From: Streptomyces europaeiscabiei
GTDB taxonomy: Bacteria > Actinomycetota > Actinomycetes > Streptomycetales > Streptomycetaceae
Direction: 5' to 3'
Length of the DNA: 64,000 nt
NCBI RefSeq assembly: GCF_036346855.1
Contig: NZ_CP107841.1
Coordinates: forward strand, 1 to 64,000
This document shows, piece by piece, positions 1,114 to 33,762 of this stretch. The stretch's first letter is position 1; each line of letters starts with the position of its first letter. The notes under the pieces were generated by a model. The model saw nothing but the letters and a program-made list of their open reading frames with translations. It was not told where the DNA came from and made no database searches. The position numbers and the translations under genes are program-made.

Positions 1114-1157
1114 TTTCCCGAAACGGTCAGAAAACGAGTCAGGGGGAGGATTGCTAA

Positions 1158-4304: not shown

Positions 4305-4336
4305 GAAGGCTCTGCCTGCTCCCGCCCCACCACGCC

Positions 4337-4372
4337 AGACCCCGGACCCTCTCTTCGAGAGGCCTGGGGTCT
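4337..4372 (+). terminator. Hairpin terminator after helicase
   Basis: Strong inverted repeat AGACCCC...GGGGTCT with an inner CTCTC-ttc-GAGAG stem, 32 bp after the tail ORF. It has no U-run, which is usual for actinobacterial terminators. It separates the helicase unit from the DUF4238 gene. Confidence 0.7.
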
Positions 4373-4484
4373 CGTGCTGTCGGCTGGCAGATAGCCGCCG
4401 CACCTACGCGTCCCAGCCCGTGAGCGATCGGCGGACAGCGGAAAACCCAAGCGCGGTCCTTCCCGGTTCGCGACCATAGATCCC

Positions 4485-5456: not shown

Positions 5457-5677
5457 ATCAGGCACCTGTTACTCGAGCGGCTGCCGGTCGATGTCTGCGT
5501 ACGCAGTGGCCTCCTGTGCGCCCTGTCGGCACGGTCGGTTGAGCCTCTGTGCGGCCGTAGTCGGCTGGTCACGTGCTGGGCGGGGAGATGACGGGCTGCC
5601 ACCCTCGCCCGGTTGAACTGATCACTGCACGGCCGTGGCGCCGTACGCAGAAGTCCAGGGGTCGGGGTCTCGCGCCT

Positions 5678-6197
5678 TCAGGGTGGAGGCGTGAGTCGGT
5701 GCCAGATGAAGATGCAGCTCTCCAGGCTGGCGAGTGACGGCCGGCGCAGCACGGACCGGATCCGCTCGGGTCCCACCAGGACGACAGGCATGCGGCGTTC
5801 ACGGTCCTGGAACAGGCTCCACAGCCCGTAGATGTACTGAAGGGCCTCGGTCCGCAGCAGATGGGCATCGCGTACAACCACCACCGGCCAGGAGCGGCGG
5901 CCGAGTTCGTTCTCGACAGCCCGCTGTGCGTCGGCCAGCCGTCGCGGCCGGACACCGAGGTGCAGGGCGGCGTGGAACGCGTCCAGGAGCGCCGCGAGGT
6001 TGCCCGGCGCGGCGGTCGTGACCACGACGGAGTCGGCCCCGTCGCAGCGGCTGAGGGAAGCCTCCACCACGGCCGCACCCTGGACGTCCTTCGGCGCGAT
6101 GACGCACAGCAGCGCGCGGGTCTCAAAGGATGTGGCCCAGGTTCTCGGCAAGTGCGGAGAACGCTTCGTCGGACACGGCCGTGGCGGCCTCGCCCAT
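5678..6197 (-). pseudogene. Frameshifted TniB-like AAA protein without P-loop
   Basis: Starts at ATG 6197 behind GGAGGGACC, reads MGEAATAVSDEAFSALAENL and stops at TGA 6125-6123; the family-like sequence continues in the +1 frame (ETRALLCVIAPKD...) to 5678. It is related to the TniB-like protein at 16840-17583: both contain a VGxExxxxVLRR segment and an IFIW motif near the equivalent position. The nucleotide-binding loop is replaced by APKDVQGAAVV and Walker B is VVVVRDAHLL, so ATP hydrolysis is unlikely. The junction CTT TGA G resembles the release-factor-2 +1 slip site. Decayed gene or programmed shift cannot be decided here; decay is the default. Confidence 0.6.
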
Positions 6198-6389
6198 GGT
6201 CCCTCCCCGGGGAGTTGCGTACGGGACGCCACCAGTCCAACACGTTCGTCGGCGAAGGCGGAGGCGTGGACGTCATCACGGCGCAGATTGACCGGGCACG
6301 TTCGGGGCGTGAGCGGCTGTGCGCCTCCACGATGAGTCACATCTGCTCGCGCGGGCGATCCGACACAGATGGAGCTCCGTCCTGGCGCG

Positions 6390-7322
6390 TCAGCCCCCTG
6401 TCGGCAGTCCAGGCAGCACGACTCCGAGGTAGGCGGCGAGAACGCTGCCCAGCGCACCACTGGCAACGGGCGACAGGACGGCCAGCGTCTGGGCACCCCA
6501 CCGCTGGAGACGGCTTGGATCGGGGCTAACGCTGGTGGCTTCCTCTTCCATGCGCGTCGCCAGTTGGGTGATCTCAGCGGCATCGTCTTCGGGCAGCCCC
6601 AGAATCGGCACGGCCTGGCGGAGTGCGCGGGCGGCCATGACGACCTGGGCGAGGTCGACGCCGCTGTTCGTGGTCGCGTTCAGCGTGAAGTCGCGGCTGT
6701 TCGCGGCGATGTTGCCCGTGTTCTGCCCGATGTGGAAAGTGGTGTTCCCACTGGTGTTGCGGCGTTCGTACGCGCCGATGTCACCCTGGTAGTTGTCCAC
6801 GCAGTCTTCTCCTTCGGCGGTGATCTCGGCTTGCACGGGCCCGTCCGAGCTCCCGTTCCGGTCCCCCTTGATCAGGCCCTTGGCGCTCAGGTAGGCGGAG
6901 GCCCGGTCGATGTCCCTGTCGGTGAGGCGTTCGCCCTCGAAGAGGGACAGCGGATCGTTCAGCACGTCCGCGACGGCAGGCAGCAGGATGTCGTCGTGTT
7001 TGCGATGCCACAGCCAGACCAGCAGGCCCTTGCGTGCGGCGGCGGCCCGCGCGGCCGGGTCGGCGCGCCGGCGCCTGCGCTCCTCCATCCATTCAAGGCC
7101 GCGCGGGGTCAGGTTGGCTTCCGGGCCGTCGTGGGTGGTGTCACGGTCGCCCAGGAGCCGTTGGACCTTGCAGAACTGCAGGAGCCGGTAGGTCTGGTTC
7201 TCGGTGAGGCCATGCGACTGCCCGAACTCGGTGATCGGCACTCCGCCCAGCGGATCAGTTCTCGTGCGGTCGTAGACCCACTCCACGAGCGGTTCGTGCA
7301 GGGTGGAGAAGTCGGCGGACAC
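6390..7322 (-). CDS. Winged-helix protein with C-terminal hydrophobic segment (unknown)
   Basis: A 310-aa protein. The N-terminal ~170 residues look like two winged-helix modules (VPITEFGQSHGLTENQTYRLLQ, then LTDRDIDRASAYLSAKGLI). A Gly/Asn/Thr-rich stretch follows (NTSGNTTFHIGQNTGNIA), of the type seen as a linker in predicted phage-conflict proteins. The C-terminus holds a helical segment and a hydrophobic stretch (LSPVASGALGSVLAAYLGVV) that could insert in a membrane. It follows the PIN-domain gene by 39 bp on the same strand, so the two are probably one transcript. A DNA-sensing module coupled to a membrane-active end is an inference from layout only. Confidence 0.6.
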   Translation of the reverse strand: MSADFSTLHEPLVEWVYDRTRTDPLGGVPITEFGQSHGLTENQTYRLLQFCKVQRLLGDRDTTHDGPEANLTPRGLEWMEERRRRRADPAARAAAARKGLLVWLWHRKHDDILLPAVADVLNDPLSLFEGERLTDRDIDRASAYLSAKGLIKGDRNGSSDGPVQAEITAEGEDCVDNYQGDIGAYERRNTSGNTTFHIGQNTGNIAANSRDFTLNATTNSGVDLAQVVMAARALRQAVPILGLPEDDAAEITQLATRMEEEATSVSPDPSRLQRWGAQTLAVLSPVASGALGSVLAAYLGVVLPGLPTGG

Positions 7323-7361
7323 AGGGTGCTCCCTTGCTCGGTACGACGGGCTTGCTGGTGC

Positions 7362-8246
7362 TCATGGCTTTTTGATGAAGGGCAGTCCGACGGCGGCGAG
7401 TTTCGTCTGAAGGTTGATGTCCCTGGTGGCCACGTAGACGGCGGAGCCGGGGTGCCGGGACTGCAGCAGCAGGGTGGAGGCCACGAAGCGGTCGTCGGGC
7501 ACGTCGAGGTCGAGCCAGTTGGGCAGTCCGTCGCCCTTGGGTTCGATGTGCTCGAAGAGGGCGTGCACATCGCCGGCCACTCGTACGCCGCGCAGAACGT
7601 CGCCGTTGGTCCGAAGCCCTTTCAGTCGGCGGTCGGCCTTCTTCGCCGCGTCGCGGATGTCGGGGTTGCGGCCGGCGAGCTTGTGGTCGTCCAACTCCCG
7701 CAGGACAACGGGCAGCAGGTGGACCATGTACCGATTCCCGAGCAGCGGCGTGTAGACCGCCACGTCGGGGTCATCGAGCAGCACGTTCGTGTCGACCGCT
7801 ACACGCACCGCCCAGGCGTCATCCGGCAGGAGCTCGCCCAGCTTCCGGAGCGTGGCTGCGGCCGCATTGACCTTGTCGACGGCCTTGTCGATGCTGGCCG
7901 GCACGGTGGTGTCCCGGGGGCGTACAAGCCAGCGCTGCAACAGGCCGAGGGTCCCGTCGAGGCGCTTGGTGACCTCCGGGGTCGGGTGCGGGAACAGCAG
8001 CCGGAACAACGGCTCCCACTCCCGTACGCGCCCCAGCAGTTCCATCCTTCGCGTCTCGAGCTCGGGGCCACTGGGTACCCAGCCCCACTTCGCGGCACCG
8101 ACGTACAAGATGCCGCCGGATGGGCGGTTCGGGTCGATGTTCCGGATCTGCGAGTCCGCGAGAGCCTTGAGGAAATCCGCTTCGATCAGGTCCAGGTCGG
8201 AGCGGAGGCGTTCCAGGTACGTCGGCGGGGCTTGTGTGGCGGCCAT
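7362..8246 (-). CDS. PIN-domain ribonuclease-like protein
   Basis: A 294-aa protein; ATG 8246 is chosen because the frame upstream lacks family-like sequence. The C-terminal half is a PIN domain: AVDTNVLLDDPD holds the first acidic pair, VLRELDDHK the second, and VPDDRFVASTLLLQ and VATRDINLQTKLAAVGLPF supply the remaining acidic residues and closing strand, as in the PIN_4/PhoH-associated type. The N-terminal ~170 residues are helical and unassigned. PIN domains cleave RNA and serve as toxins or effectors. There is no adjacent VapB-type antitoxin; instead it pairs with the winged-helix gene downstream, which might play a regulatory role. Confidence 0.75.
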   Translation of the reverse strand: MAATQAPPTYLERLRSDLDLIEADFLKALADSQIRNIDPNRPSGGILYVGAAKWGWVPSGPELETRRMELLGRVREWEPLFRLLFPHPTPEVTKRLDGTLGLLQRWLVRPRDTTVPASIDKAVDKVNAAAATLRKLGELLPDDAWAVRVAVDTNVLLDDPDVAVYTPLLGNRYMVHLLPVVLRELDDHKLAGRNPDIRDAAKKADRRLKGLRTNGDVLRGVRVAGDVHALFEHIEPKGDGLPNWLDLDVPDDRFVASTLLLQSRHPGSAVYVATRDINLQTKLAAVGLPFIKKP

Positions 8247-8493
8247 CTGCCGATGATGCCGCACACCTCTGACAACCCATTCCCGTTCCGCCTGGGACCT
8301 CTTCTCCGTTACCACTTCCCCCACGAGCCCACCGCTGTGTCGCGGGCTACCACAGGGCTCGCCGATGCACACGGTCGGGATGCCCCGAACTCCCGGCTGC
8401 GTCTGCATCACGCCCACGGCCGGGAGTCGGTGTGCACCGAGCACCAGGTAAGACGCCCCACAGCATCACTGGGGGCGTCTTACCGCACACGCG

Positions 8494-8919
8494 TCAGGAG
8501 GTGAGTACGAACCAGTCGTCGGCAGGCGGCCACCTCCGCGGCCGCATCACATCCCGGATCCGCAGGAGGTCAGCGCACCGGCCCTCGATCGCGTCCACGG
8601 CCTCCGGCGGCGTGTGATCGGTGAGCCTCAGGACGCGGATCCGGGCGAAGACCCTGCGTTTCGCCGGATTGTTGTCGTGCCTGTCCAGCCGTCCGAGCAG
8701 GCCGTCCGCACGGTTGGCCTGCCCCAGCCAGCGGAGACGGTGCTCCGTGTCTGAGATCAGGTAGATCGCGGTGGTGATGTCCAGTTCCTCGTACCGCCAC
8801 CGCTCGGCCCAGCGCACGGGCCGGAAGAGAACCTCGTCGAGGTACCGGCCGGCTGCTCGGGGCAGGGCACCCAGGCGGCCGTCGGTCAGGACCGGGCCGG
8901 TCGGCAGGGCTCCGCTCAC
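8494..8919 (-). CDS. GIY-YIG-like small protein
   Basis: A 141-aa protein whose ATG overlaps the stop of the upstream 741-aa gene in ATGA, implying translational coupling. The core reads TTAIYLISDTEHRLRWLGQA, then GLLGRLDRH and a later AIEGRC. This follows the spacing of GIY-YIG nucleases (GIY replaced by AIY, YIG by WLG, then a conserved Arg and a late Glu). If correct it would be a small nicking nuclease or a degenerate relative. The assignment is by pattern only; the ending PRRWPPADDWFVLTS is unassigned. Confidence 0.5.
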   Translation of the reverse strand: MSGALPTGPVLTDGRLGALPRAAGRYLDEVLFRPVRWAERWRYEELDITTAIYLISDTEHRLRWLGQANRADGLLGRLDRHDNNPAKRRVFARIRVLRLTDHTPPEAVDAIEGRCADLLRIRDVMRPRRWPPADDWFVLTS

Positions 8920-11141
8920 AGGGCGTCACCCTCCTCCGTGAACTCCTCCTCGAACTCCGCCAGGTCGTCGTCCTCGTCGGAGTCGCTGGCCTCCGTGAGG
9001 AACTTCTCCGACGCGGACTCCTCGATGGTCGGGTTGCCGTACTGCATGTCGATGATGGCCGACTTCAGCATGCCCACGTCGGAGTGCACCACGGACAGAG
9101 CGCGGAGAAGAGCGGCGATTTCCTGCTCCACGGCTCCGTGCAGAGGCCGCTGACCGGCCCCCTGCGCGTCGGACAGAAGGGACCGCGCTGTCTTGAGCAC
9201 CTCGACCAGGGCCGCGGGCAGATCGCCGGTGACTGCGTCGTAGAAGCGGCCACGGGTGTCGTTAAAGATCTCCAGGGGGGTGGGGTCCGGAGGCTGCGGG
9301 GTCGTCCCATCGGTGCTGCTGCCCCGGGGCGTGAACGTCGGCGGGCGCTTGGTCTGGGCCTTCGGGAAGACCGTATCGAACCAGGACTTGTCCGCCTTGG
9401 TGTCTTCGATAGGAAGGCCTTCGGGGTCCACCTGCCGGGGCGTGGTGTTCTTGGCCGTTGCCCTGGCGAGCTCGTTCATCAGCCCGACCGTCCGGCGGGG
9501 CTGGCTGAGCATGGCCTTGCGGGCGTTGATCGTGCTCCGGCGGATCTTCTTGTCAGCGACGGTTTCGCCGTCCTCGAGCTCCCCGCTGCCGCTCTGTGCA
9601 CCGATCGACCCACGGTCCGCCTCGATGATCTTGCACTCGGCGAGCCAGTGGATGCCGCGGGTCGTCAGGAAGCGGTCGAGCGCATCGAGATCGAGCGGCT
9701 GACCGGCCGTACTGACGGCGCCGATCACCTTGTCCCACGCGGGTTCCTCGGCGAGGTGCCCCTGGGACTTGATGAAGGTGCTGCTCAGCAGGCCGTCCAG
9801 GACGCGAGGATTCCAGCGGAAGCTGTATCCCTCGCCGATCACCGAGGAGACCATGCGCAGGCGGTGCCAGACGTGGTCCTTGCTCGTGGCGTAGCGGGCC
9901 GGCTCGCCCAGCACCCGGCGCAGGGCCCTGGCCCGGGCGGGGTCCTTGGGGAAGACGACGGCGTACAGGGCGCGGTCGCGCCGGTCGCGGGCAGTGACGA
10001 TGCCTTCGCCGGGACGGTGCTCGGGATCGGGACCCTCCCCGGCGAGCCAGGCACGCTCCTCCTCGCTGATCCATCCGCGCTGCTTCGCATCCCGCAGAAC
10101 GGCACGCAGGTCGGAGGCCGCCTTCTCGACCAGGGTGTAGCCCAGGGGCGGGCGCCGGTGGTCGGCCCGATTCGGGTCGAAGACGACGTTGTGGAAGTCC
10201 TCCGGGGCGGAGGTCCCCACGATGATCTGCATCCTGACCGTGGCGACCATGGCGGCCTGCTTCGCCTGGCCATGGAGGGAGTGCCGCTCGTCGTCGAAGG
10301 CGACGCGCAGCCTCTCCGCGAACGCCGGCACCCACACCGCGGGGTCGGCCACCTTCGCGGGAACGCCGTCGACACCGTCGAGTCCGAGGAGACCGCGATC
10401 GATGCCGAAGATGATGTCCTTCGGCACCAGGCCGTGAAGCGCGAGGCGGGCCCGGCTCCGGTTCGCGCCCTTGACGGCGGTCGCGTCGAGAACCCGGCGC
10501 ACCTGGGCAGTGATGCCACCGTCCAGTTCCTTGACCGGTTCCCGGACCTGACGCAGCAGCAGGGCGTGCAGGGTGGTCTCGTTCTGCCCGTAGACCTGCA
10601 TGTCGTCGATCAGCTTGTAGCCGCGGTCCCCATCAGCCTGGTCGAGGGCATCGGTCATGGTGCCGATCAGCCCGCTCAGCGTCTGGCTGTCCACCGGGGC
10701 CGCGGTCGTCAGGAATGCCGCCGGCAGCGCGCCCTCGTGTCGGCCGGTGACCAGACGCGGAAGCATGCGGGCCGGGTCAGGGTTGTGGCGCGCGGGAGAG
10801 TGGAAGAAGCGGCGGATGCGCTCGTTGTACTCGCCGGGAGTGCCGGCGAACCCATGGACGGTGACCTCCATGATGTCGAGGCCGGTGCTCGGGTCGCGGT
10901 TGATCACTCCGGGCTTGATCCGGTACTCGGCACCGTCTTCGCCGCGCTGCCTGAGGAGGTAGTCCTTGGGGTGGACGATGTAGGGGGCGAGACCGTCGGT
11001 GATTTCCAGGGGGAGCCCGGTGGTCTCGTGCAGCGCGACGGAGAAGGTGCGCGTCCACGTGACCTTGTCGGCGCCCGGGAACGGATTGCTCTGGGGGTGG
11101 TCCTCGTCGGACTCGTAGTCCTCGATGATGTCAGGATTCAT
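8916..11141 (-). CDS. Large unknown protein (741 aa), lead gene of a defence-like operon
   Basis: The start is ATG 11141 with GGGAGG seven bases upstream. I do not recognise the family. The first third has a mixed alpha/beta pattern; residues ~290-330 (VRMQIIVGTSAPEDFHNVVF...DPNRADHRRPPL) faintly recall the N-R-P segment of DGQHR/DndB-like proteins, too weak to use. A central region mentions WHRLRMVSSVIGEGYSFRW. The C-terminus is strongly acidic (DSDEDDDLAEFEEEF), as in DNA-mimic or partner-binding tails. It is coupled by a 4-bp overlap to the GIY-YIG-like gene, so the two likely act together. A pair of inverted repeats lies upstream at 11321-11356. Confidence 0.65.
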   Translation of the reverse strand: MNPDIIEDYESDEDHPQSNPFPGADKVTWTRTFSVALHETTGLPLEITDGLAPYIVHPKDYLLRQRGEDGAEYRIKPGVINRDPSTGLDIMEVTVHGFAGTPGEYNERIRRFFHSPARHNPDPARMLPRLVTGRHEGALPAAFLTTAAPVDSQTLSGLIGTMTDALDQADGDRGYKLIDDMQVYGQNETTLHALLLRQVREPVKELDGGITAQVRRVLDATAVKGANRSRARLALHGLVPKDIIFGIDRGLLGLDGVDGVPAKVADPAVWVPAFAERLRVAFDDERHSLHGQAKQAAMVATVRMQIIVGTSAPEDFHNVVFDPNRADHRRPPLGYTLVEKAASDLRAVLRDAKQRGWISEEERAWLAGEGPDPEHRPGEGIVTARDRRDRALYAVVFPKDPARARALRRVLGEPARYATSKDHVWHRLRMVSSVIGEGYSFRWNPRVLDGLLSSTFIKSQGHLAEEPAWDKVIGAVSTAGQPLDLDALDRFLTTRGIHWLAECKIIEADRGSIGAQSGSGELEDGETVADKKIRRSTINARKAMLSQPRRTVGLMNELARATAKNTTPRQVDPEGLPIEDTKADKSWFDTVFPKAQTKRPPTFTPRGSSTDGTTPQPPDPTPLEIFNDTRGRFYDAVTGDLPAALVEVLKTARSLLSDAQGAGQRPLHGAVEQEIAALLRALSVVHSDVGMLKSAIIDMQYGNPTIEESASEKFLTEASDSDEDDDLAEFEEEFTEEGDAL

Positions 11142-11320
11142 GGCTGCCTCCCGAGATGGGGGTACGCGGCTGCCTGGGCCGGCTGGTCCGGGCAGAGCAC
11201 GAAGGCGCCCGGACACCCGCACTTTCTCGGGGGTCATCAGTCTCAGCTGCCGCACGCATACGCGATATGAGCGCTGAACCCGTCCGCTCGTCGGCCCTCT
11301 GCCGCGACGCGGTGGTCGTC

Positions 11321-11356
11321 ACGATCCGAAGATCGTGTCGCGATCCGGGGATCGCG
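11321..11356. promoter_or_regulatory. Tandem inverted repeats upstream of the 741-aa gene
   Basis: Two adjacent dyads, ACGATC-cgaa-GATCGT (11321-11336) and CGCGATC-cggg-GATCGCG (11339-11356), repeat every 18 bp; outer bases GTCAC...GTGAC pair across both. The 445-bp gap 11142-11587 holds no credible gene, so this is the only clear structure between the 741-aa gene and the converging-transcription end of tpg. It could be a two-site operator for the minus-strand operon or a cruciform/terminator element. Confidence 0.5.
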
Positions 11357-11587
11357 TGACCAGACGGTCATTGCGGACGCCCCCGACCCGGATGGGCCAC
11401 TGGGGGTTCAGGAAGACTCACGGCATGGAGCCGAATGCTGTCGTCCAGAGTACCGGGGCCCACCGACAACGCCGCCCTCTTTCGGTGACGCCGCTTTGTG
11501 AAGGCGCCGTAACTACTGCAGCAAGTCGCCGCTGCGTGAGCGAGCTACAGGCCGACGGCCCGGGGCTCGCCTCGTCACGGCCGTTCT

Positions 11588-12145
11588 CTACAGGTCGAAC
11601 TCGAGGTGTTCAATGCCGGTGAGGCGGACCTCCTCCAGCTGGCCTGCGCGGCGGCCGCTGTCCTGGAAGTACACCTCCTTGAGGGCTTCGGCGGCGATCT
11701 GCTGGAGCTGCTGGTCGGTGGCGCCCTGCTCCTGGGCGTCGAAGAGGCGGGCGGCGTACTGGGGAGGCAGCGCGACCGTCAGGTGCCGCAGCCGGTCTTC
11801 GTCCGTCGTCCCGATCGGCGCGGTGTAGCCGATCCGGGCGCGGGTGTCGATGACGATGCCGCCGGTGGTCGCCGCCTTCTGCCGCGCCTGGGCACGGATC
11901 TGCGGCTGCCACCGCTTCTTCACCTCCCGCTCCAGGCGGGCTGCGAGGTCCGGGCGGGGCTTCTTGATCTGGTCCTTCACGTACCGCTCGACCGTGCGCT
12001 GCGAGATCCGCAGCATCTGGGCGACCGCCTTGGTGCCCTTGAGCTGTTTGACCAGGTACCGCATCTGCGCGGGCGCGCTCTTGGGCACCGGGCGGGTGAA
12101 CGCCTTCTGCACCGCGGCGTCCAGGCCGTCCCCGAACATGCTCAT
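11588..12145 (-). CDS. tpg: Tpg telomere terminal protein
   Basis: A 185-aa protein with the hallmark sequence of the Streptomyces terminal protein: AQMRYLVKQLKGTKAVAQML, then ISQRTVERYVKDQIKKPRPD (a helix-turn-helix), KRWQPQ, IVIDTRARIGYTA, and the ending ...EHLEFDL. Tpg is covalently attached to the 5' ends of linear replicons and primes end-patching synthesis. Length is normal for the family (~184 aa). It starts 6 bp after the tap stop, behind GGAG, giving the usual tap-tpg operon. Confidence 0.95.
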   Translation of the reverse strand: MSMFGDGLDAAVQKAFTRPVPKSAPAQMRYLVKQLKGTKAVAQMLRISQRTVERYVKDQIKKPRPDLAARLEREVKKRWQPQIRAQARQKAATTGGIVIDTRARIGYTAPIGTTDEDRLRHLTVALPPQYAARLFDAQEQGATDQQLQQIAAEALKEVYFQDSGRRAGQLEEVRLTGIEHLEFDL

Positions 12146-12151
12146 CGCGGT

Positions 12152-14374
12152 CTACTCCCCGGTGTCCTGAACGGTAACGGTGCCGTCCTTGATGTACCGG
12201 GCGAGGTTGAGCTCCGGAGCGTTGAACTGCTCGCGCACCCCCTCGCCCCACAGCACGCTCTGGGTGCCCTCGTGCTTCACCAGCCCGGGGTTCACGCCGA
12301 GCTTGAAGCCGCCCGGCAGCGGCTTGCCGTCCCGGTAGGGCAGGAAGTCCAGCGGGGAGGGCCCGTCGGAGGCGTAGACGGCGCAGTCCGAGAGGACCGC
12401 GACCGGGTACTGCCCGGTGAAGGCGGCGTGCTTGACGATCTTGCGGTGCATGTTGATCCGCGTGCGGGAGATGACGGCGGCGCGGATGTCCGGGCGCCAG
12501 GTGGGCCGGGCAAGGGCCCGCCACGGCTGCCCGGGCTTCCAGCCCTCCCCGCGCGGGCGCTCGCGCAGCTTGCCGATGCCGCCCTTCACGGTCGCCTTGA
12601 TCGCGGACACCACGATCGCCAGCTGAGGGTCACGCTGCCGGTAGCCGTCCATCGCCGCGAGGAAGTCGGCTGGCGGCATGTCCGCGTGCACGCCGAGGTC
12701 GGCCATCGTGGCGAGGTAGGCGTCACGCAGCCGGTTGTACCAGCCGTCCAGGTAGCGGCCGTTGTCGTGACGGACGTACGCCTCGACCGGCGCGACGTCG
12801 TAGCCGAGCTCCACCGCGTACGCCACGGTCGGCGTGGCGTACCAGGCCGGTCCTGCCGGGCGCTCGCCTTTCGGTGTGAACGGACTGGGCAGCAGCTCGC
12901 CGTCCAGGTCCGTCCACTCCTTGCCGAGCTTCACGCGGGACAGGTCGACGTGGCTCAGGTCGACCAGCCAGGAACCGGGCAGTTTCGCGTCGAAGACGGG
13001 GTTCTTGACGTGCGTCGGCGCGCCTAGGCCGACCGTGAGGCCGTTGGCGCCGGCGGCGAAGGCCATGTTCACGTCGATGCCCACCAGATGGGGGCGAAGG
13101 CATTCGGCGTCGGTGAGCGGGCGCGCCCAGTCGTACGCCTCCTCCACCAGGACCTCCGCCGGGGTGCGGTGGTGGAAGCGCGGAAGGTCTTTCAGCAGCG
13201 GGTGCCCGTCGGGGGCCTCGCCCGGCGCGCAGTCCACCGGACCCTTCCCCAGTGAGCCGGGGTTGTGTTCGGAGTGCCGCTTGCCGTCGGCATCGGGCTC
13301 GGATGCGCGGGTCGGCGGGTGCAGCGCGGTCATCAGCTCCAGGCCGGTCACGGCGGTCGATCCGCGCGGCGTCATCACCCGGGCCGCATACGTGCCCAGC
13401 AGCCGGGCCAGATCCGCCGGCGGCAGCTGCCCCGCGTTGGCCCAGTGCCGGATGTCGAGCGCGTCCCACGACGGAATGCACAGCTGCACGCAGGATCGCT
13501 CCGAACCCTGCGCGGGGCGGTAGATCCTCGCCCACGGCCCGAAGCCGCGCTTGGTCAGCTGCCAGTTGGCACGCGTCAGCTGCTTGATGACCTTGTGGCC
13601 CTCCGGGATCCGGCCGGCCAGACGCTCCTGCTGTGTCAGCGTGACGGGCAGGCCGTAGTGCTCGCACGCGGCCTCGGTCAGCACGATCAGCGGGTCGGCG
13701 TCCTTGCCCGGCCCGGACAACTTCGGCTGTCCGAGCCGCCCTTCGCGGAGCGTCCACTCCACCAGGGCCGGGATCGACTTGGCCGGTACGTCCAGGACCA
13801 GGCCGCCGACGCAGTACGCCAGCACCTGACCGTCGACGTCAACGTCGACGACCGCGAGCGGACCGTTCTCGAACCGCCGATCGGCGCCGCACGTCGGTGT
13901 GCCTGCGGGGGCGGCCTTCTTCGCGGCCGGACGGCGCGGCGTCGGCCTGGTCGTGGCCGTCGGGCCCGGTACGGCGGCAGGGGCAGCGGGGCGGAGTGCG
14001 GTGTTCGCAGGCTCAGCAGCCGGGTCTGTAGGTGCGGTGCGGGCTTGGGCCGGCTCAACTTCCGATGGCGCAGGAGCGGCCGCGACGGCAGGCGTCTTGG
14101 GAATCGCCGTGTCCACAGGGGGCACCGGACCGTTGGCGGGGTAGAGCTGGGCGAGCTGCTTGAGCATGCGGGCGTATGCGTCACGCTCCGGCGGCCGTGG
14201 CTCGGTCTTGCCGGCCTCCCAGCCGCTGACCGTCGCGCGCCGCACCTGCAGTGCGGCGGCCACCTCATCCAGCGTCAGGCCGTGCGCCTGGCGCAGCCGC
14301 TTGCGTTCCGCCGGGGGCGGCAACGGGGAGCGGGACGCGATGAGCGCGTCGACCGCGTCGAACAGCTCGGACAT
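12152..14374 (-). CDS. tap: Tap telomere-associated protein
   Basis: A 740-aa protein, with start ATG 14374 behind AGGAGG. It begins MSELFDAVDALIASRSPLPP and has an N-terminal helix-turn-helix (LTLDEVAAALQVRRATVSGW), exactly as in Tap proteins, followed by a Pro/Ala-rich linker (~residues 85-170) and a large conserved C-terminal domain (e.g. VGIDVNMAFAAGANGLTVGLG). Tap binds the telomeric 3' overhang and recruits Tpg. With tpg immediately downstream, this is a complete end-replication operon about 12-14 kb from the telomere. Four 11-bp-spaced repeats lie in its promoter region and may be an autoregulatory site. Confidence 0.95.
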   Translation of the reverse strand: MSELFDAVDALIASRSPLPPPAERKRLRQAHGLTLDEVAAALQVRRATVSGWEAGKTEPRPPERDAYARMLKQLAQLYPANGPVPPVDTAIPKTPAVAAAPAPSEVEPAQARTAPTDPAAEPANTALRPAAPAAVPGPTATTRPTPRRPAAKKAAPAGTPTCGADRRFENGPLAVVDVDVDGQVLAYCVGGLVLDVPAKSIPALVEWTLREGRLGQPKLSGPGKDADPLIVLTEAACEHYGLPVTLTQQERLAGRIPEGHKVIKQLTRANWQLTKRGFGPWARIYRPAQGSERSCVQLCIPSWDALDIRHWANAGQLPPADLARLLGTYAARVMTPRGSTAVTGLELMTALHPPTRASEPDADGKRHSEHNPGSLGKGPVDCAPGEAPDGHPLLKDLPRFHHRTPAEVLVEEAYDWARPLTDAECLRPHLVGIDVNMAFAAGANGLTVGLGAPTHVKNPVFDAKLPGSWLVDLSHVDLSRVKLGKEWTDLDGELLPSPFTPKGERPAGPAWYATPTVAYAVELGYDVAPVEAYVRHDNGRYLDGWYNRLRDAYLATMADLGVHADMPPADFLAAMDGYRQRDPQLAIVVSAIKATVKGGIGKLRERPRGEGWKPGQPWRALARPTWRPDIRAAVISRTRINMHRKIVKHAAFTGQYPVAVLSDCAVYASDGPSPLDFLPYRDGKPLPGGFKLGVNPGLVKHEGTQSVLWGEGVREQFNAPELNLARYIKDGTVTVQDTGE

Positions 14375-14404
14375 GCAGCACCTCCTGCCCGACCCTAGCG
14401 TGAA

Positions 14405-14442
14405 GCGCACATTTCGCGTACCAAATGCGTACGGGCTGCGTA
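14405..14442. promoter_or_regulatory. 11-bp iterons in the tap promoter
   Basis: GCGCA at 14405 and GCGTA at 14416, 14427 and 14438 are spaced exactly 11 bp apart, one helical turn, so a protein could bind all four on one face of the DNA. They lie 31-68 bp upstream of the tap ATG, just upstream of a TAGGGT (-10-like) hexamer at 14398-14393. Placement suggests control of tap-tpg, possibly by the helix-turn-helix of Tap itself (inference). Confidence 0.55.
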
Positions 14443-14516
14443 AGATACGGTTGCGTCGCCCGGGCTGTCGCAGGTGCCCCATCTCACCGAACTATGGGCG
14501 CACCCCAGTGAAGCTG

Positions 14517-14873
14517 TCAGGCGTCGCGGTATTGGTTCCGTGCAACGCGGACGACGCGGCCAGCCTTAAGCAGACCGTCTATGTAGACAGAGACGCCGTT
14601 GCGGTTGGCCTGCTTGCCGGCGGCGGTCAAAGCGTCCGCAATATCACCGAGAGACATGGGCTGAGGCGACACCCTGAGGATCTTGACGATGGCATCCGCC
14701 TTGGTGAGGTCTTGGATCGCCGACCCCGGCTCGGATACCGCTGCGCTCAGCTTCTTGAAGGCGTCCAGCTTGGCCTTGAGCCCCTCGATATGAGCGCCGA
14801 GTCGGTCACGCTCGAGTTCGGCTTCATGGAGTTCACGCTCGACGCTGGCGAGGTCCTCGCTGTAGGAGTTCAC
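14517..14873 (-). CDS. Coiled-coil winged-helix regulator (118 aa)
   Basis: Residues 1-50 form a heptad-rich coiled coil (VERELHEAELERDRLGAHIE), and the C-terminal half reads like a winged helix (DAIVKILRVSPQPMSLGDIA, then GVSVYIDGLLKAGRVVRV). It is likely a dimeric DNA-binding protein. The GTG start at 14873 lies only nine bases after a good -10 hexamer TATAGT with no ribosome site, so translation is probably leaderless. Its promoter carries an 8-bp-arm dyad, suggesting autoregulation. It sits between tap and the second tpg. No known function. Confidence 0.65.
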   Translation of the reverse strand: MNSYSEDLASVERELHEAELERDRLGAHIEGLKAKLDAFKKLSAAVSEPGSAIQDLTKADAIVKILRVSPQPMSLGDIADALTAAGKQANRNGVSVYIDGLLKAGRVVRVARNQYRDA

Positions 14874-14882
14874 GAGGAGAAG

Positions 14883-14915
14883 ACTATAGAAACCTAGTAG
14901 AAGTTAGCTAGGTTT
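14883..14915 (-). promoter_or_regulatory. Promoter with operator dyad
   Basis: On the minus strand, TATAGT at 14888-14883 is a near-consensus -10. Directly upstream is a perfect dyad, AAACCTAG (14890-14897) and CTAGGTTT (14908-14915), with a 10-bp spacer, covering the -35/spacer region. A protein bound there would block RNA polymerase. The region is strikingly AT-rich compared with its surroundings. Confidence 0.6.
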
Positions 14916-15146
14916 TCTTAAAGATGGACGCTGCTCGACCGGCTGCGTGGGCGCGCGAGCTACGGAGCGGCGATCAGGTTCAGTGAGACGAGCTCAGGCT
15001 CAGTGCGATAGGAGCAGGTCCTCTAGTCGAGGACCCGCAGGGATGTCTCACGTACGCCGGAACTAGCCAGAGACAGCGCGCGGGTGTGAAAGACCTGAGG
15101 GCGCAGACGCCCGCTGTGCGGCGGGCAGAGCGGCTCGGGGGCAGGC

Positions 15147-15701
15147 ATGGAGGAGATCGTCAAGGGGCTTGAGCGAGCGCTGCTGACCCGTCCCGTGCCC
15201 ACTGGTGACGCCGCTGTGCGTTTCCTGCTCAGGGCGGAGAAGGGCTCCACGAAGAACGTGGCTGCCCTCCTGGGAATCTCCCAGCGCACGGTACAGCGAT
15301 GGGTCACCGCCCGGCCGGCAGTGCGCCGCCGCCCCAGCGTTGTACACGTGGGGTTGATCGAAGAGGCCGTCAGGGCACGGTGGCAGCCCCGGGTGCGGGC
15401 CCGCCAGCGGGCCCGGGCCGAGGCCGACGGCTTTGTCCTCCACACCAGGGCGCGGTTCGGATTCGCCGCTCCGGCAGGATCGTCCGACGATCCGCGGGTA
15501 CGGCTGATCACCCAGTACCTGTCGGGAGAAGTGGCCCGCGAGCTGTTCGCCGCCCGGGACGCCGGCGGGGGTGAGCAGCAGCAGATGGTGATCCTCGCCC
15601 GAGCTTTGGGGCATGCCTACTTCCGTGATGGAGGCCTGCGTGCCCACGGTCTGGGGATCGCCTTCACCGATGTGGAGTTCGCCGAGTTCTCCATCGACTG
15701 A
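15147..15701 (+). CDS. Divergent Tpg paralogue
   Basis: A 184-aa protein with the Tpg layout: an N-terminal segment ending KGSTKNVAALLG, ISQRTVQRWV helix-turn-helix, RWQPRVRARQRARAEADGFV, HTRARFGFAAPAGSSDDPRV, and ending FTDVEFAEFSID. Its length equals that of tpg, but the KKPRP-type linker is replaced by RRRPS and overall similarity is clearly lower. It is on the opposite strand and has no tap partner. It could be a second terminal protein, a diverged copy from another linear replicon, or a regulator using the HTH. Key residues for DNA attachment cannot be judged here. Confidence 0.8.
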   Translation: MEEIVKGLERALLTRPVPTGDAAVRFLLRAEKGSTKNVAALLGISQRTVQRWVTARPAVRRRPSVVHVGLIEEAVRARWQPRVRARQRARAEADGFVLHTRARFGFAAPAGSSDDPRVRLITQYLSGEVARELFAARDAGGGEQQQMVILARALGHAYFRDGGLRAHGLGIAFTDVEFAEFSID

Positions 15702-15721
15702 CCGTGTACCAAGGTTCGGGC

Positions 15722-16822
15722 TCAGGGCGAGGGCGGGGTCTGGTGCCGTGTCAGCATCGCGTCGTAGTACTGGGCTTCCTTTCGTTCGCGCCAGTCCCAC
15801 TGGATGCGGCCGACAGGGCCGGTGCGCTGACCGACGGGCGGCTGGGGCGGGCGCATCCTGGCCGCCTCGGCCACGAGCAGCAGGTGGGTGCGGTCGTGGG
15901 GGCCGGCCAGCAGGTGCTGGTCCTGGCCGGGCGCGAGCCGGGCGAAGCACACTGCGGCTTTCAGGAAGACGCGCGCCCACGGCGGCACCCGGTGGGTGGC
16001 GCAGCCGTCGGTGTAGCGAGCGCGGTCGTGCAGGGCCAGGGTAGCCGCGGCGTCGTCGTAGTCGCCGGGGCGGGCGGTGGCAAGCTGCTGGAAGGAGGCG
16101 CCGGTGAAGAGCGCGGCGGCGAGGGCGGTGGCCAGGCGGGGGTGGGCGGTCACGGTGGAGAGGCGCCGGGTGACTTCCCGGGTTGTCTGCCCGGTGAGGG
16201 GTGCGGGTGGCGGGCGGTGCCGGAAGGTGATCGGCGGCGGTGTGCACGGGGCGGTACAGGGGATGGGGCTGTCGTAGGAGACGAGGCGGTCCAGCACGGA
16301 CAGGGTGAGCCACCGGTCTGGCGACCGGGCGGGCTCCTCTGCAGGCGGGGGTACGGGAGCAGTCGCGCCGTAGTAGTGGCGGCGGGCTGCCTGGAAGTCT
16401 GTGGTGACGGCGTAGTCGGCCGTCCGCAGCGCCTGGTGCAGGGCGGCGGGCAGATGGGGGCGGTGGCAGACCAGCGTCAGGCGGATGCCGGTGAGGGCGC
16501 GCAACTGCAGGAGGCGCATCGTGCGGCGGGCGGTGAGGCGGTGGGCGCGCAGGACGGTCAGCCGGGTGACGGGCAGGGCCGTGATCCAGGCGGTGGCGGC
16601 TTCCCAGGCGGGCTGACGGCCGGCGGGGAAACGCCCCGGGAGCAGGGGCGGTTTGCCCAGGGCGGCGAGAAGGTCGTGGGCGAGGCCGGTCTCGCTGGTG
16701 GTGCCCGGGCCGGGGTGCAGGGTGATCCGGCCGGACGGCGGATGGTGGGCGGCCAGGGCGGTGTGCGTGTGGACCGCGTCGTCGCCCGGGTCGATGACCA
16801 CGGCAACGGGTGTCGGCGACAC
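15722..16822 (-). CDS. Fourth protein of the TniAB-like operon (degenerate AAA plus unknown C-terminus)
   Basis: Last gene of the operon; the GTG at 16822 is the likeliest start (366 aa), 17 bp after tniB. The N-terminal half has an AAA-like skeleton without nucleotide-binding motifs: VAVVIDPGDD opens it, and LTVLRAHRLTARRTMRLLQL sits where Walker B (LVDEAQ..) would be, followed by IRLTLVCHRPHLPAALHQAL. The C-terminal part (LATALAAALFTGASFQQLAT, later RVPPWARVFLKAA) vaguely recalls the helical start of a tyrosine-recombinase catalytic domain, but no R-H-R-Y set is visible. It occupies the place TniQ holds in Tn5053 but has no zinc fingers. Function unknown; target selection is a guess. Confidence 0.55.
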   Translation of the reverse strand: MSPTPVAVVIDPGDDAVHTHTALAAHHPPSGRITLHPGPGTTSETGLAHDLLAALGKPPLLPGRFPAGRQPAWEAATAWITALPVTRLTVLRAHRLTARRTMRLLQLRALTGIRLTLVCHRPHLPAALHQALRTADYAVTTDFQAARRHYYGATAPVPPPAEEPARSPDRWLTLSVLDRLVSYDSPIPCTAPCTPPPITFRHRPPPAPLTGQTTREVTRRLSTVTAHPRLATALAAALFTGASFQQLATARPGDYDDAAATLALHDRARYTDGCATHRVPPWARVFLKAAVCFARLAPGQDQHLLAGPHDRTHLLLVAEAARMRPPQPPVGQRTGPVGRIQWDWRERKEAQYYDAMLTRHQTPPSP

Positions 16823-16839
16823 GGCAGGCGGCGTGGTGG

Positions 16840-17583
16840 TCAGGCGAGGCGGCTGAAGGCCCAGCGCAGCAGCTCCTGATCGACACGGGAGCGGCCGGTG
16901 CGGGTCAGGGCGGTGCGGGTGTGGGCGGTCAACTGGGCCCAAGCGCGGAAATTGCCGTGTGCGGCGTGCTGGTCGGCGAAGGCGATGTCGTCGGGATCGG
17001 CGTCGGCCCACACCGGATGGAACAAGGGGATGGCCTCCAGGACCTCGCCGGGGGTGAGACGGGTGAAGTGCTGCCAGATGAAGATGCGGGAGGACAGCAT
17101 CGGTTCGCGGCGCAGCACGGTGTGGCAGCCCTCCCCACCGACGAAGATGATCGCGAGCTGGGTTGAGGGTTCGTCCCACAGGTAGCGGAAGTACTCGAAC
17201 GCCTCCCCGTTGAGCCACTGGGCCTCGTCCACCAGGAAGGTGCGGGGGCGTTCGGCCAGGGCGGTTTTCAGCAGGCGGTCGAACTCGCTGGGGTGGCGCG
17301 GCGGTTCGCCGGCCAAGTCGAGCGCGGTGAACAGTTCGTAGCGCACCGCGCGAGCGGTGGGCCGGGCCCGGAAGGTGATCTTGCGGACGTCCTCACCGGG
17401 CTCGAGTGCGCGCAGGCAGGTGTTGACAGCGAGGGTCTTGCCGAAGCCGGCGCCGCCGTGGATGCACATCATGGCGCGGGCGGCGACCGTGTCGGAGATG
17501 TTCTCCCGGGCGGTGAGCAGGGCGCGGGTGGTGACCACGGACGCATCGGGCAGGTCGACGTACTGGTAGGTGGCCGCGGTCAC
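16840..17583 (-). CDS. TniB/TnsC-like AAA+ ATPase
   Basis: A 247-aa protein. Walker A is IHGGAGFGKT (~residues 41-50), Walker B TFLVDEAQWL, with a sensor segment IIFVGGEGCHTVLRRE and a conserved GNFRAWAQL near the C-terminus. TniB-type ATPases form filaments on target DNA and activate the DDE transposase. The GTG start overlaps the stop of the transposase gene (GTGA), so translation is coupled. Motifs are intact, so it is predicted active. It is similar to the AAA half of the protein at 19289-20518 and to the broken gene at 5678-6197. Confidence 0.85.
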   Translation of the reverse strand: MTAATYQYVDLPDASVVTTRALLTARENISDTVAARAMMCIHGGAGFGKTLAVNTCLRALEPGEDVRKITFRARPTARAVRYELFTALDLAGEPPRHPSEFDRLLKTALAERPRTFLVDEAQWLNGEAFEYFRYLWDEPSTQLAIIFVGGEGCHTVLRREPMLSSRIFIWQHFTRLTPGEVLEAIPLFHPVWADADPDDIAFADQHAAHGNFRAWAQLTAHTRTALTRTGRSRVDQELLRWAFSRLA

Positions 17584-19292
17584 GAGGCGTCTCCGTCTTC
17601 GTCGGTGGTGGGACGTGCGGCCCGCCCGTTGCGGCCGTACGGGGCGGAAGCGCCATCACGGCCGGGCGGGTGCGGGACGCGCGGGCCCGGCGTGGTCAGC
17701 GCGGCCAGGGAAGCAGGGGTGCGCCAGTCGGCCGGGGGCGCGGCGGGCGGGATGAGGTCCGGCATTGCGAGCTGCGCGAGGTCGGTGTCGGCAGTCTGGG
17801 CGAGTTCGGCCTCGGCCTGCGCGGTGGTCAGCGCGCCGAGCCGCTGAGGTGCCTCGGGCTGGATGGCGGCGGCGTAGCGCTCGCGCTGGGAAGCCTCCAG
17901 GTCCTTCTTCAGACGGCGCGCACGGGCGGCCCGTGCTCGCCGTACGGCGCTGACCTGTTCCTCGGTGGCATGGTCGGCCAGGTCCGCGGGACCCAGATAG
18001 CGGCCAGTGGCCGCGTGGTACACCTCGATGCGGTGGTCGTGGTGGGGCATGAAGCGGATGCGGACCTGGATCCCGGTCTGGCCGGTCATCCACGGCCCCA
18101 CGTAGTCGCGTTTCCTGAAGCGGATGCCGCGGGTGGTCAGCGTGCGGGTGCCGGCGTCCTCCAGGGTGAACGTCCACAGATCCGTCGCGGGCACGTCCCG
18201 CAGCGGGGTGGGATCCCCCTGCCACGCCTCGAGCGGAGTCTTGCCCCGCAACGGCGCCGGGCGGTGCTCGGTGTTCCACCAGAGCGTCCAGGCCAGCAGC
18301 CGGGCGGTGAAGTCCTCGAAGCCGAGCAGTACTTCGTCCTTCGGGCGGGAAGCCCGTTTGCCGGGGCGCGGCTGGCGGGCATAGCCGGGCAGCGCGGCCA
18401 GGAACATACTCTCCACCGCACGGTTCAGGCCCTCCACGGTGCCCTTGAGGTGGGGGGTGTAGGCGGGCAGGTCCTCCACCGTCACGTCCAGGAGATCAAA
18501 CGCTGCGGTCACCGTCCGGGACAGGAAGTCCTTACCGCGGTCGACCCGTACTTTCTCGGGCAGGCCGCCGATCGGGCCGTAGGGGTCCTCGCGCAAGACC
18601 GCGGAGCGCAGCGCGGCCAGTACCGACTCCCGCGACGGATCCCCCGGCGTGACCGCGACACCGGTGATCGCGTTCGTCGCGCAGTCGGTGAACCAGGTGA
18701 TCCACGGCCTGCGGGCCTTGCCCTCGACGTCGACCAGCACCGCCGCTTGGACGTGGTCGGTCTCCCACACCTGGTTGCGCCAGCCGCGCGGCCGGGCCAG
18801 GAACACATCGTGCTTGCGTGCCGCACGTTCCCCTCCCGCAAGCCCCGCCCGCTCCCCCGGCGTCAGATCCCGCTGGATCGCCCGGTGCAGCGTCGGGATC
18901 GACGGAGGAGGCTCCCCCTCGCCCTTGGCCGCGCGAGCGATCAGCTCACGATGGACCGCCGCGACGTTGCCCTTCCACAAAGCCAACAGGCGGCGCACCT
19001 CCGGAGTGACGGAGAAGCGGTCTTTGCTCTGGGCCCGCGCCCCGGGCTCCGCAGCCGCGGACTCGTCACGCTCGGCAGCGGCAAGCCACCGCCACACCGT
19101 GCGCTCGGTCACCTCCAACGACTCCGCCATCAGCCGTACATGGCGGGACGTCAGTTTCTGGTCCTGTCGCAGGGCGAGCAGCCGGCGCACAGCAGGGCCG
19201 CGCAGCGCCGACAGGGAGGAAGAAGGCAGACCTCCCCGCGCGTGCCCGTCCTCGTGGCTGCCAGCCTCTCCCGTCCCGGAGGCGCCGGTCAC
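17580..19292 (-). CDS. TniA/TnsB-like DDE transposase
   Basis: A 570-aa protein starting at GTG 19292, overlapping the previous stop (GTGA). The N-terminus has two helix-turn-helix modules (ERTVWRWLAAAE and ...LHRAIQRD), then an rve-type integrase core: D in VWETDHVQAAVLVD, D in KVRVDRGKDFLS, E in KGTVEGLNRAVES, then a Mu-type C-terminal beta-barrel (RKRDYVGPWMTGQTGIQVRIR) and a basic helical tail. All three catalytic acids are present. In Tn5053/Tn7-type elements this protein cuts and joins transposon ends. I see no obvious terminal inverted repeats near the operon, so a domesticated or immobilised state is possible. Confidence 0.87.
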   Translation of the reverse strand: MTGASGTGEAGSHEDGHARGGLPSSSLSALRGPAVRRLLALRQDQKLTSRHVRLMAESLEVTERTVWRWLAAAERDESAAAEPGARAQSKDRFSVTPEVRRLLALWKGNVAAVHRELIARAAKGEGEPPPSIPTLHRAIQRDLTPGERAGLAGGERAARKHDVFLARPRGWRNQVWETDHVQAAVLVDVEGKARRPWITWFTDCATNAITGVAVTPGDPSRESVLAALRSAVLREDPYGPIGGLPEKVRVDRGKDFLSRTVTAAFDLLDVTVEDLPAYTPHLKGTVEGLNRAVESMFLAALPGYARQPRPGKRASRPKDEVLLGFEDFTARLLAWTLWWNTEHRPAPLRGKTPLEAWQGDPTPLRDVPATDLWTFTLEDAGTRTLTTRGIRFRKRDYVGPWMTGQTGIQVRIRFMPHHDHRIEVYHAATGRYLGPADLADHATEEQVSAVRRARAARARRLKKDLEASQRERYAAAIQPEAPQRLGALTTAQAEAELAQTADTDLAQLAMPDLIPPAAPPADWRTPASLAALTTPGPRVPHPPGRDGASAPYGRNGRAARPTTDEDGDAS

Positions 19293-20518
19293 AGCGGCCC
19301 CATGAGCCGTGCGCAGGCCCGCTCCAGCATCCGGCGGTCCACTACCGCACGGCTCTTGCCGTAGACCTCGGCGGTCAGGTGCGAGGTGAGCTTCGCCCAG
19401 GTCCGGAAATTGCCGTGGCCCACATGCTCGTCCACCCACGCGACATCGTCCTCGCTCACGTCCTCCCACAGCGGGTGGAAGGCCGCCATCACGGTGGCCA
19501 CCTCGTCCGGGCGAAGACGAGGCACCAACTCCCAGGTCAGCACCCGAGAGGCCAGCGCGGGCACCCGGCGCAGCGCCCGTTCGCTGCCCGCGCCCGCCAG
19601 CACGAGTGCCGTGTCCGTGTCCGGGTGGTCCCACAGCCCGCGCAGAAACTCCAGCGCCGGCCCCGGAAGACGCTGTGCCTCGTCCAGCACCAGCACGCGC
19701 GGCTGCCGTAGCGCGTTCACCAGCATCAGGTCGGCCTCCCCCGCCCCGCGCGGCAGACGCCTGCCCAGCTCAAGGGCATCCGCGAGCACCCGGCGCAGTT
19801 CCGGCACCGTCGGATGCACACCGACATGGACCCGACGGACCCTGGCCGGGTGCGGCAACTGGGACAGGGCGTACTGCAGCGCGACGGTCTTGCCCTGGCC
19901 GGCGTCGCCGTACAAACACACCACCGCCCCCACCGCGGCCGCGTGCGCGACCGTCCGCAGCACCGACCGCACAGCAGACGTGTGCACCACCTGCGCGCCC
20001 GGCACCAGGACCGGAACCTGCGCCAGATGCTTCTGCTCCCGCAGGATCACCTGCCCGCCTGTGCCTTGGCCTGCCACGACGTTCAGGCCGAGCTCGCTGA
20101 GCGGATCAGGCCTGCGTGGCCCGGCCACCACGGGCTCCCGCTCGACCATCAACGCCCGGCCCGCCCGGCGGTCCCTGCGGATCACCCGGTGCAGTGTCGA
20201 CGCCGACGGAACCGACGCCCCGCCAGCCGCGGCCAGCCGGCGTCTCAGCTCAGCGACATTCCCTCCCACCTCGCCCAGCAGCGCCCACACCTCGTCCGAC
20301 ACCGCATACCCCTGCCGGACCGGCGCCTCCACCTGCCCGGTCGTCTTGGCCTGCTCCAGCCAGCGCCACACCGTACGCTCCGAGACACCCACCGTCTCCG
20401 CGACCGCACGCACATGCCGCGTGGCCAGTTCCCCCGCCTGCTGCCGCTCCAGCAGACGACGCACCACCAACCCCCGGGGCAGCACGGGCCCACGACCGGC
20501 CCTTACCTCTTGGTCCAC
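19289..20518 (-). CDS. HTH-AAA+ fusion protein (TniA N-terminus joined to TniB)
   Basis: A 409-aa protein leading the operon. Residues ~15-130 duplicate the DNA-binding N-terminus of the neighbouring transposase: both have SERTVWRWL/TERTVWRWL and LHRVIRRD/LHRAIQRD at the same spacing. The rest is an AAA+ ATPase with Walker A YGDAGQGKT, Walker B VLVLDEAQRL, sensor LVLAGAGSERALRR and a GNFRTWAKL segment shared with the TniB-like protein. It would therefore combine end-sequence recognition with ATPase activity, an arrangement I do not recognise from Tn7 or Tn5053. GTG start at 20518. The overlap with the transposase gene suggests fixed stoichiometry. Confidence 0.82.
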   Translation of the reverse strand: MDQEVRAGRGPVLPRGLVVRRLLERQQAGELATRHVRAVAETVGVSERTVWRWLEQAKTTGQVEAPVRQGYAVSDEVWALLGEVGGNVAELRRRLAAAGGASVPSASTLHRVIRRDRRAGRALMVEREPVVAGPRRPDPLSELGLNVVAGQGTGGQVILREQKHLAQVPVLVPGAQVVHTSAVRSVLRTVAHAAAVGAVVCLYGDAGQGKTVALQYALSQLPHPARVRRVHVGVHPTVPELRRVLADALELGRRLPRGAGEADLMLVNALRQPRVLVLDEAQRLPGPALEFLRGLWDHPDTDTALVLAGAGSERALRRVPALASRVLTWELVPRLRPDEVATVMAAFHPLWEDVSEDDVAWVDEHVGHGNFRTWAKLTSHLTAEVYGKSRAVVDRRMLERACARLMGPL

Positions 20519-21143
20519 CCCACGATCACACCGACCGGGCCAACCTCAGCGCATAAGAACTCTCGAATCTGAGACAACATCAGCTGCCATGCGATAAAGC
20601 CCCACGACAGCGATCCCACCCATTAATCTCTCACCTCATGACAGCGGCCTGCCCACCCGTAAACAGCCGCTGACCAGCCCCGTAACACCCACCCCTGGAC
20701 CAGCACGACCGACTCTCACCACCACCGACACCAACCCGAGAGATCGCAGCTACACCCAGGTCCGCCGCACGGCCTCGCCCTCCCGAAACGGGCGCACGGT
20801 GCAGTTCCTCCTGGAGGACCGGTACGAGCTCGGCACGCTCGCAGTTCAGTTGGCGGCAAAGGCTGGCGGTTCGAACTCAAGCAGGCGGATGTCTTCCACG
20901 TCATGGCCATAGAAAGACCACTCGTGGACATTTCGCGCCCTCGCGTACGCGGGGATGACCCCGGGTGACCTACGACGCGGTCATCGGCCGGACCAGGCAT
21001 CAGCAAGTGCTGTGGTCGTCGGGAAGCGCGCGAGGGAAAGCCAACGGCCGCCACCCGCTACGACGTCGGCCAGACCGGCAAACGCCCCAAGCCCCCAGAG
21101 GCCATCGGCAGGCCTGACAGATCATGGTCGACGATGAACAAGC
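20519..21143. other. Intergenic region upstream of the TniAB-like operon
   Basis: No gene of normal codon use is visible on either strand. The first ~180 bases are less GC-rich and should hold the operon promoter. Around 20790-20880 a short frame (FLLEDRYELGTLAVQLAAKAG) looks like a remnant of a coding sequence, family unknown. No clear inverted repeats matching transposon ends were found by eye. Confidence 0.4.
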
Positions 21144-33664: not shown

Positions 33665-33762
33665 TGGGTACTCACCGCTGGCGCGACCGGCCCGACGATG
33701 TGACGGGCACGGCCATCGCCAGCGGAAGTACTGGACACGTTCCCCTTCGACAAGGAGATGTG

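Follow-up and report, generated by a model that had tools for sequence, protein, structure and literature searches.

The window (the whole stretch of 64,000 nucleotides analysed here, positions 1-64000) is the left end of the 10,755,582 bp linear contig NZ_CP107841.1 of Streptomyces europaeiscabiei. The two ends of this contig were alike over at least 79.58 kb at 99.997% identity, so the operon described below is present in two copies, the second of which sits in the right terminal repeat. From its end inward the window carries palindromes that presumably resemble, from base 1, the archetypal Streptomyces telomere, a helicase gene that is ttrA-like by position and type, a tpg and a tap gene, a second tpg, the operon and one transposon end abutting target DNA (Table 1). 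Thus tpg-type genes adjoin the operon, as had been stated in the original prediction, which was made from the DNA letters alone. The two tpg proteins were 41% identical, and the second tpg was present in 8 of 22 element maps (the window's own element counted, and some of the maps covering partial stretches only).

Table 1. Features of the terminal element and its junction (window positions).
Feature	Position	Strand	Basis
Whole element	1..20748	.	telomere as outer boundary, single transposon end as inner boundary
Telomere-like palindromes	1..300 (about)	.	by-eye reading of sequence at contig end
Helicase, telomere-proximal (HA repeats, ResIII/DEAD)	1158..4079	+	Pfam; relatives at other ends
tpg, terminal protein	11588..12145	-	NF047541, 298.3 bits (cut-off 90)
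tap, telomere-associated protein	12152..14482	-	NF047542, 1131.5 bits (cut-off 600)
Second, diverged tpg beside the operon	15147..15701	+	NF047541, 182.9 bits
Gene 4, 366 aa: N-terminal domain of TnsC/MuB fold, Walker motifs absent; C-terminal part with no Pfam match	15722..16822	-	
Gene 3, 247 aa: MuB/TnsC-like AAA ATPase with Walker motifs	16840..17583	-	AAA_22, E 3e-16
Gene 2, 570 aa: TnsB/MuA-like DDE transposase	17580..19292	-	
Gene 1, 409 aa: second MuB/TnsC-like ATPase, joined to an HTH region of transposase type	19289..20518	-	
Transposon end: tip and conserved subterminal blocks	20519..20748	-	junction comparison; tip 5'-TGCGATCTCTCGG
Target DNA at junction	20749..20857	+	found uninterrupted in three other genomes

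The four predicted reading frames of the operon are real and lie on the minus strand at 15722..20518. GTGA overlaps tie genes 1 and 2 (19289-19292) and genes 2 and 3 (17580-17583), and the likely start of gene 4 is 17 nt past the gene 3 stop. For the transposase, the start at 19292 (570 aa) is more likely than the ORF start at 19634, and for gene 4 the start at 16822 (366 aa) is likely to be preferred to that at 17218. The fusion of an HTH region to an ATPase, which had been read from the lead protein, is real as well: the motifs ERTVWRWL and LHRxIxRD are common to this protein and the transposase, and gene 1 matched the transposase at 46% over 112 positions (BLASTP, E 3e-17). The catalytic residues of the transposase are intact, as predicted: its DDE triad (D293, D365 and E401 in the numbering of the 684-aa ORF) aligned with that of TnsB 8rdu/7svw, which we take to be from ShCAST. 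At the sequence level the transposase matched this TnsB (E 1.4e-14), PADLOC TnsB_0_V-K (E 7e-15) and the Pfam families rve (E 6.1e-7, just under its cut-off) and Mu-transpos_C (E 2.1e-11).

Genes 1 and 3 both encode an AAA fold with Walker motifs, as in MuB/TnsC-type ATPases. The gene 1 model matched MuB (E 1.9e-7) and ShCAST TnsC (E 1.8e-5); by sequence, gene 3 matched MuB 8xvb weakly (E 0.036), ranking below DotB 6geb (E 0.0062). In gene 4, Walker A and B motifs were looked for and are absent; its families were those listed by VIA-align, and a by-eye suspicion that its C-terminal part was tyrosine-recombinase-like was dropped when Pfam gave no match. The window's element holds no tniQ, and within its own genome TniQ matches were found only at 1.68 and 2.81 Mb. 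No TnsA family was found in the 15 element ORFs scanned with Pfam or in the other ORFs profile-scanned (together a subset of the ORFs), no Cas protein scored above its family cut-off among the element ORFs scanned, and no transposase relative was found in phage records at E<=1e-5.

The operon had been thought to lack terminal repeats. This is correct for a second end, which was not found; on the other hand, one sharp transposon end is present at 20748. Among 24 related loci (all from genome contigs titled Streptomyces), homology halted at 20748-20750 in 11 and within ~30 bases or earlier in others, and the layout of the junction was that of an unrelated flank followed by the tip. The 230-bp end was matched in 70 of 392 genus genomes (E<=0.001), many over part only. 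A junction scan of the loci other than L001-L017, L048, L049 and L078-L107 returned 64 junctions, 13 of which were dropped as duplicates or for a flank under 300 bp; the remaining 51 were distinct, with a flank of at least 300 bp (junctions in L043 and L118, below the scan threshold, are outside the 51). Among them, 47 resembled the window's end and four came from strain G067. The 51 flanks were mostly unlike, with three similar pairs over 300 bp and none at equal offset from the tip. Moreover all 51 tips, whose positions were extrapolated up to 11 bases beyond the alignment, start with TG, i.e., they are of the Mu/Tn7 type (5'-TG...CA-3').

No further copy of the 14-base tip was present in the window at up to two mismatches. 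A search of six elements, one of them covered in its inner 9.2 kb only, gave no convincing second end: the best match was at chance level (13 bases, E 0.010). The many alignments that stop at 15012-15083, upstream of the second tpg, suggested an outer end at about 15.0 kb; this was ruled out because the alignment had no common boundary there and several relatives ran on into tap. A conventional two-ended Tn5053/Mu-like transposon that lies near the telomere by chance, its second end decayed or overlooked, is very unlikely given that none of the six elements offers a convincing second end and that the outer side has no shared sharp boundary.

The position of relatives bears on the same question. 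Gene 3 had plasmid matches in 104 records, and 38 of the 60 matches listed were at least 69% identical. Among the matches listed, 36 of these 38 plasmid rows lay within 45 kb of a record end (~11.6 expected) and all 36 were transcribed toward that end; the corresponding numbers among the matches listed were 11 of 14 near an end and 7 of 11 pointing toward it at 52-69% identity, and 7 of 8 near an end and 0 of 7 pointing toward it below 52%. At 80% identity or above there were 28 plasmid records, 23 of which were listed and scored. The other two of the 38 close rows among the matches listed lie far inside, and one of these records is palindromic mid-record. For the transposon end, 28 of 35 matches were no more than 110 kb from a contig end (27 pointing toward it and one facing away), and seven lay farther inside; the 35 are those of 87 listed matches whose contig extent is known, short matches included, but a 29-base G067 match that lies 962 kb inside a contig of known extent omitted. 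Both limits, 45 kb and 110 kb, were picked after the data were seen. In the more distant gene 1 group all 17 were near a contig end and 16 pointed toward it. The end matches far from contig ends would suit the two-ended transposon, while the uniform orientation toward the replicon end argues against it. The element sits at the replicon end and includes the end.

Three records near these results deserve a separate description. The S. aurantiacus plasmid NZ_CP114282.1 (L169) has a palindrome around mid-record and holds two inverted copies of gene 1; it is a record of fused or misassembled ends. In a plasmid of Streptomyces sp. KMM 9044 (L167), a gene 2-3 relative of about 50% identity lies near the end but points away from it, tpg- and tap-like genes being located farther in; perhaps this is a second lineage with the reverse layout. 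In G007:C1 (4.98-5.28 Mb), both end copies lie mid-contig and face to face, with an N run ~2 kb from the midpoint; artificially joined chromosome ends were considered and rejected, as the sides of the N run were not alike in inverted orientation and did not match the window's element.

Several observations indicated that the element has moved. In strain G067, a terminal ~11.9 kb of identical type occupied all four ends of two contigs (9,507,903 and 222,614 bp). These blocks were 99.94-99.98% identical in four comparisons (one end compared without its outermost 614 bp), and identity halted at a related tip, TGTGATTGGG, beyond which lay four different flanks. In strain NBC_01727, the 16,219 bases from tip to record end were 100% identical on two plasmids whose flanks differ; this full identity could partly be an assembly effect. 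Identity from tip to replicon end in such multi-copy strains is a further point against a two-ended transposon. Two short elements, with 3,765 and 3,878 bp from tip to contig end, had no gene 2 match and presumably moved in trans. At six of the 51 junctions the tip stood within 3 bp of a fragment of the telomeric helicase gene, of which the inner part was always retained; counted on the homologous helicase of the window, these fragments started between residues 35 and 813. If the helicase lay where the window's lies, the old telomere was ~1.3 to 3.6 kb away from the insertion point. Two further candidates were set aside: two S. globisporus plasmids as a fresh transposition, since they cease to be identical at an unrelated ~310-bp repeat and not at the tip, and the NBC_01237 plasmids, which are uninformative as the whole 29 kb compared is shared. 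The repeat at the S. globisporus breakpoint (L042/L043, about 16320-16630) has inverted ends, GAACCTGTTTTC.

Could homologous recombination between replicons have exchanged the ends, with the operon as a passenger? The shared ends of the window's contig (at least 79.58 kb) and the 9.8 kb shared by the two S. globisporus plasmids up to a repeat other than the tip both agree with it, and recombination may copy ends within one chromosome. As a general account it is nevertheless highly improbable: at the four G067 ends and on the two NBC_01727 plasmids identity was lost at the tip with differing flanks, and 51 distinct flanks abut such tips. The original prediction had also allowed for a domesticated machine, here a host system for telomere recombination or maintenance that is no longer mobile. 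Linkage of the operon to tap and two tpg genes is in its favour, but the idea is scarcely credible in the face of patchy presence (gene 1 in 29 of 392 genus genomes at E<=1e-80), near-identical copies on separate replicons in G067 and NBC_01727, and the broken or partial copies seen in element maps. Some elements lacked gene 1 or gene 4, G067 being among those without gene 4.

The DNA entered by the element was compared with genomes in which it is uninterrupted. The first 94-109 bases of the window's flank matched three other genomes, among which homology runs outward across the junction point, and in one of them (G292) an ORF crosses that point. The outer half of the target had no match in the element's own genome (a weak test, with 510 bases searched). 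At the junctions, the five bases outside the tip favoured CCNGG (111 versus 70.3, sd 7.0; none of 274 control offsets reached it), a pattern derived from the same junctions on which it was scored. CYSRG, which we take to be the Mu-type target pattern, scored 153 versus 121.3 (control maximum 142) and beat all 274 controls; a plain 5-base dyad was reached by 6 of the 274. Mu and Tn7 make a 5-bp staggered cut, which such a 5-base target pattern would fit. As for a 5-bp target duplication, each copy here offers one junction.

A transposition system tied to the ends of linear replicons, as the original prediction had proposed, is supported: the element has one tip, the telomere forms its other boundary, and no convincing second end was found in six elements. 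By comparison of loci, the Mu/Tn7-type tip beside the operon is the inner boundary and the replicon end the outer one, and close relatives have passed from one replicon end to another, on chromosomes and plasmids alike, taking the place of the DNA formerly there and leaving the tip joined to new DNA. It is thus highly probable that the terminal 20,748 bp constitute a mobile, one-ended telomeric transposon that swaps chromosome ends and is presumably moved by its own transposase.

For the chemistry, for the fork step and for what genes 1 and 4 do, we infer the following. The DDE transposase would join the 3' CA strand of the single end to target DNA near another telomere, a target which the gene 3 ATPase would mark. 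Gene 1 would bind the end through its transposase-like DNA-binding region and tether the ATPase assembly there, and gene 4, as a dead ATPase, would stand in for TniQ by capping or adapting that assembly. Because no TnsA was found among the ORFs scanned, a single strand is proposed to be joined to the target. The outward fork from oriC would then copy the chromosome into the element and on to the element's telomere; one daughter would acquire a telomere, tap and tpg as its new end and lose the DNA beyond the junction, and the donor copy would be retained. Neither a second end nor a resolvase would be required. More tentatively, and with rather less chance of being right than not, the window's element may stand for a family of one-ended elements, in which the outward fork completes the new end and an HTH-tethered ATPase together with a dead ATPase replaces the partner otherwise provided by a second end. 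We know of no HTH-tethered ATPase or catalytically dead ATPase in such a role.

Divergence among relatives bears on how the end is read. Across nine Streptomyces elements, gene 3 was 92-99% and the catalytic core of the transposase 92-95% identical to the window's (in G067 the core was at 64%); between end types, by contrast, identity fell to 51-75% for the transposase HTH and to 50-54% for gene 1. Since both diverge between end types while gene 3 and the core stay, gene 1 and the transposase HTH probably both read the end. By eye, two or more further end types, TGCGATGTGCCGG and TGTGATTGGGCGG, were recognised in 22 distant gene 1-group loci or duplicates, several of which had no clear tip. 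TniQ-type matches occurred inside the terminal blocks of two relatives, at the right ends of G348 (C1:7976765-7977169, with a stop) and G165 (C1:12003778-12004194), so the absence of TniQ is not general; these matches would also agree with a two-ended transposon. A separate Tn7-like set (TnsA-like protein, Mu transposase, ATPase and TniQ) lies just inside the element of an S. cynarae plasmid, beside a helicase gene (L047, 5988-10805), and is perhaps another, nested telomeric transposon.

Also in favour of a two-ended transposon are three Rhodococcus plasmids (L170, L171 and L172), in which a transposase, an ATPase and a gene-4 homologue lie between inverted tips, TGAGACTCTGCA..., ~4.08 kb apart. 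The units were 87-97% alike and their left flanks unrelated; their right flanks had a 113-149 bp stretch in common, 70-79% identical, which starts ~40-75 bases past the right tip and spans about 40-200 bases to its right. As this shared stretch is far less alike than the units themselves, the units may have a preferred target site; they had no 5-bp duplication. Rhodococcus/Nocardia plasmid units resemble the window's element in the transposase core (53-54%), gene 3 (54%) and gene 4 (41-45% over 124-146 aa), but differ in that the three Rhodococcus copies have inverted tips and occur on two circular records and one linear one, and that the annotation displayed includes no gene 1, tap, tpg or telomere. 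It would seem that the telomeric form is a relative in which one end was lost and a telomere acquired.

Compared with other known systems, the element is like type V-K CAST (TnsB/TnsC) and phage Mu (MuA/MuB) in its transposase and gene 1 ATPase, and differs in having no TniQ, three ATPase-fold proteins and a single end; unlike Tn7/Tn5053-like elements, it has neither TniQ/TnsD nor two inverted terminal ends. The earlier suggestion of an undescribed system is weakened by the publication in 2025 of telomeric transposons of linear bacterial genomes (Hsieh et al., Science 387 eadp1973), to which the window's element is likened here by that paper's title and the passages citing it. No description of the four-gene set was found in a literature search that missed most subscription papers. 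According to a review citing the same work, one class of telomeric transposon carries a CAST (I-E5) lacking TniQ-TnsD (Science 387 eadp1973); as far as these passages go, the window's element is like it in being telomeric and without TniQ, and differs in that no Cas protein was found in its scanned ORFs. Horizontal transfer of telomeres had been inferred earlier (PMC8743542). The element offers a mechanism by which telomeres and their maintenance genes could spread among Streptomyces chromosomes and linear plasmids, and one-ended transposition can be put to a direct test with multi-copy strains, small transposase-free elements and uninterrupted targets. If the fork model is true, a transposon needs no second end to install DNA of any length, up to the chromosome end.

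Other contents of the window and of one relative are recorded here. Between the helicase and tpg, the window holds cargo-like ORFs (4485-11255), including one for a DUF4238 protein and two large ones (711 and 779 aa) that matched nothing in NCBIfam or Pfam under the thresholds applied. A 301-aa ORF at 5678-6583 (minus strand) has a partial AAA_22 domain and 27% identity to gene 3 over 145 positions, and may be cargo or what is left of an older element. At 33540-33894 lies a ~142-bp repeat in two direct copies, 92% identical. In one relative (L044, 25709-28019), genes annotated as TIR-domain and HEPN-domain lie between tpg and the record end, and possibly represent defence cargo.
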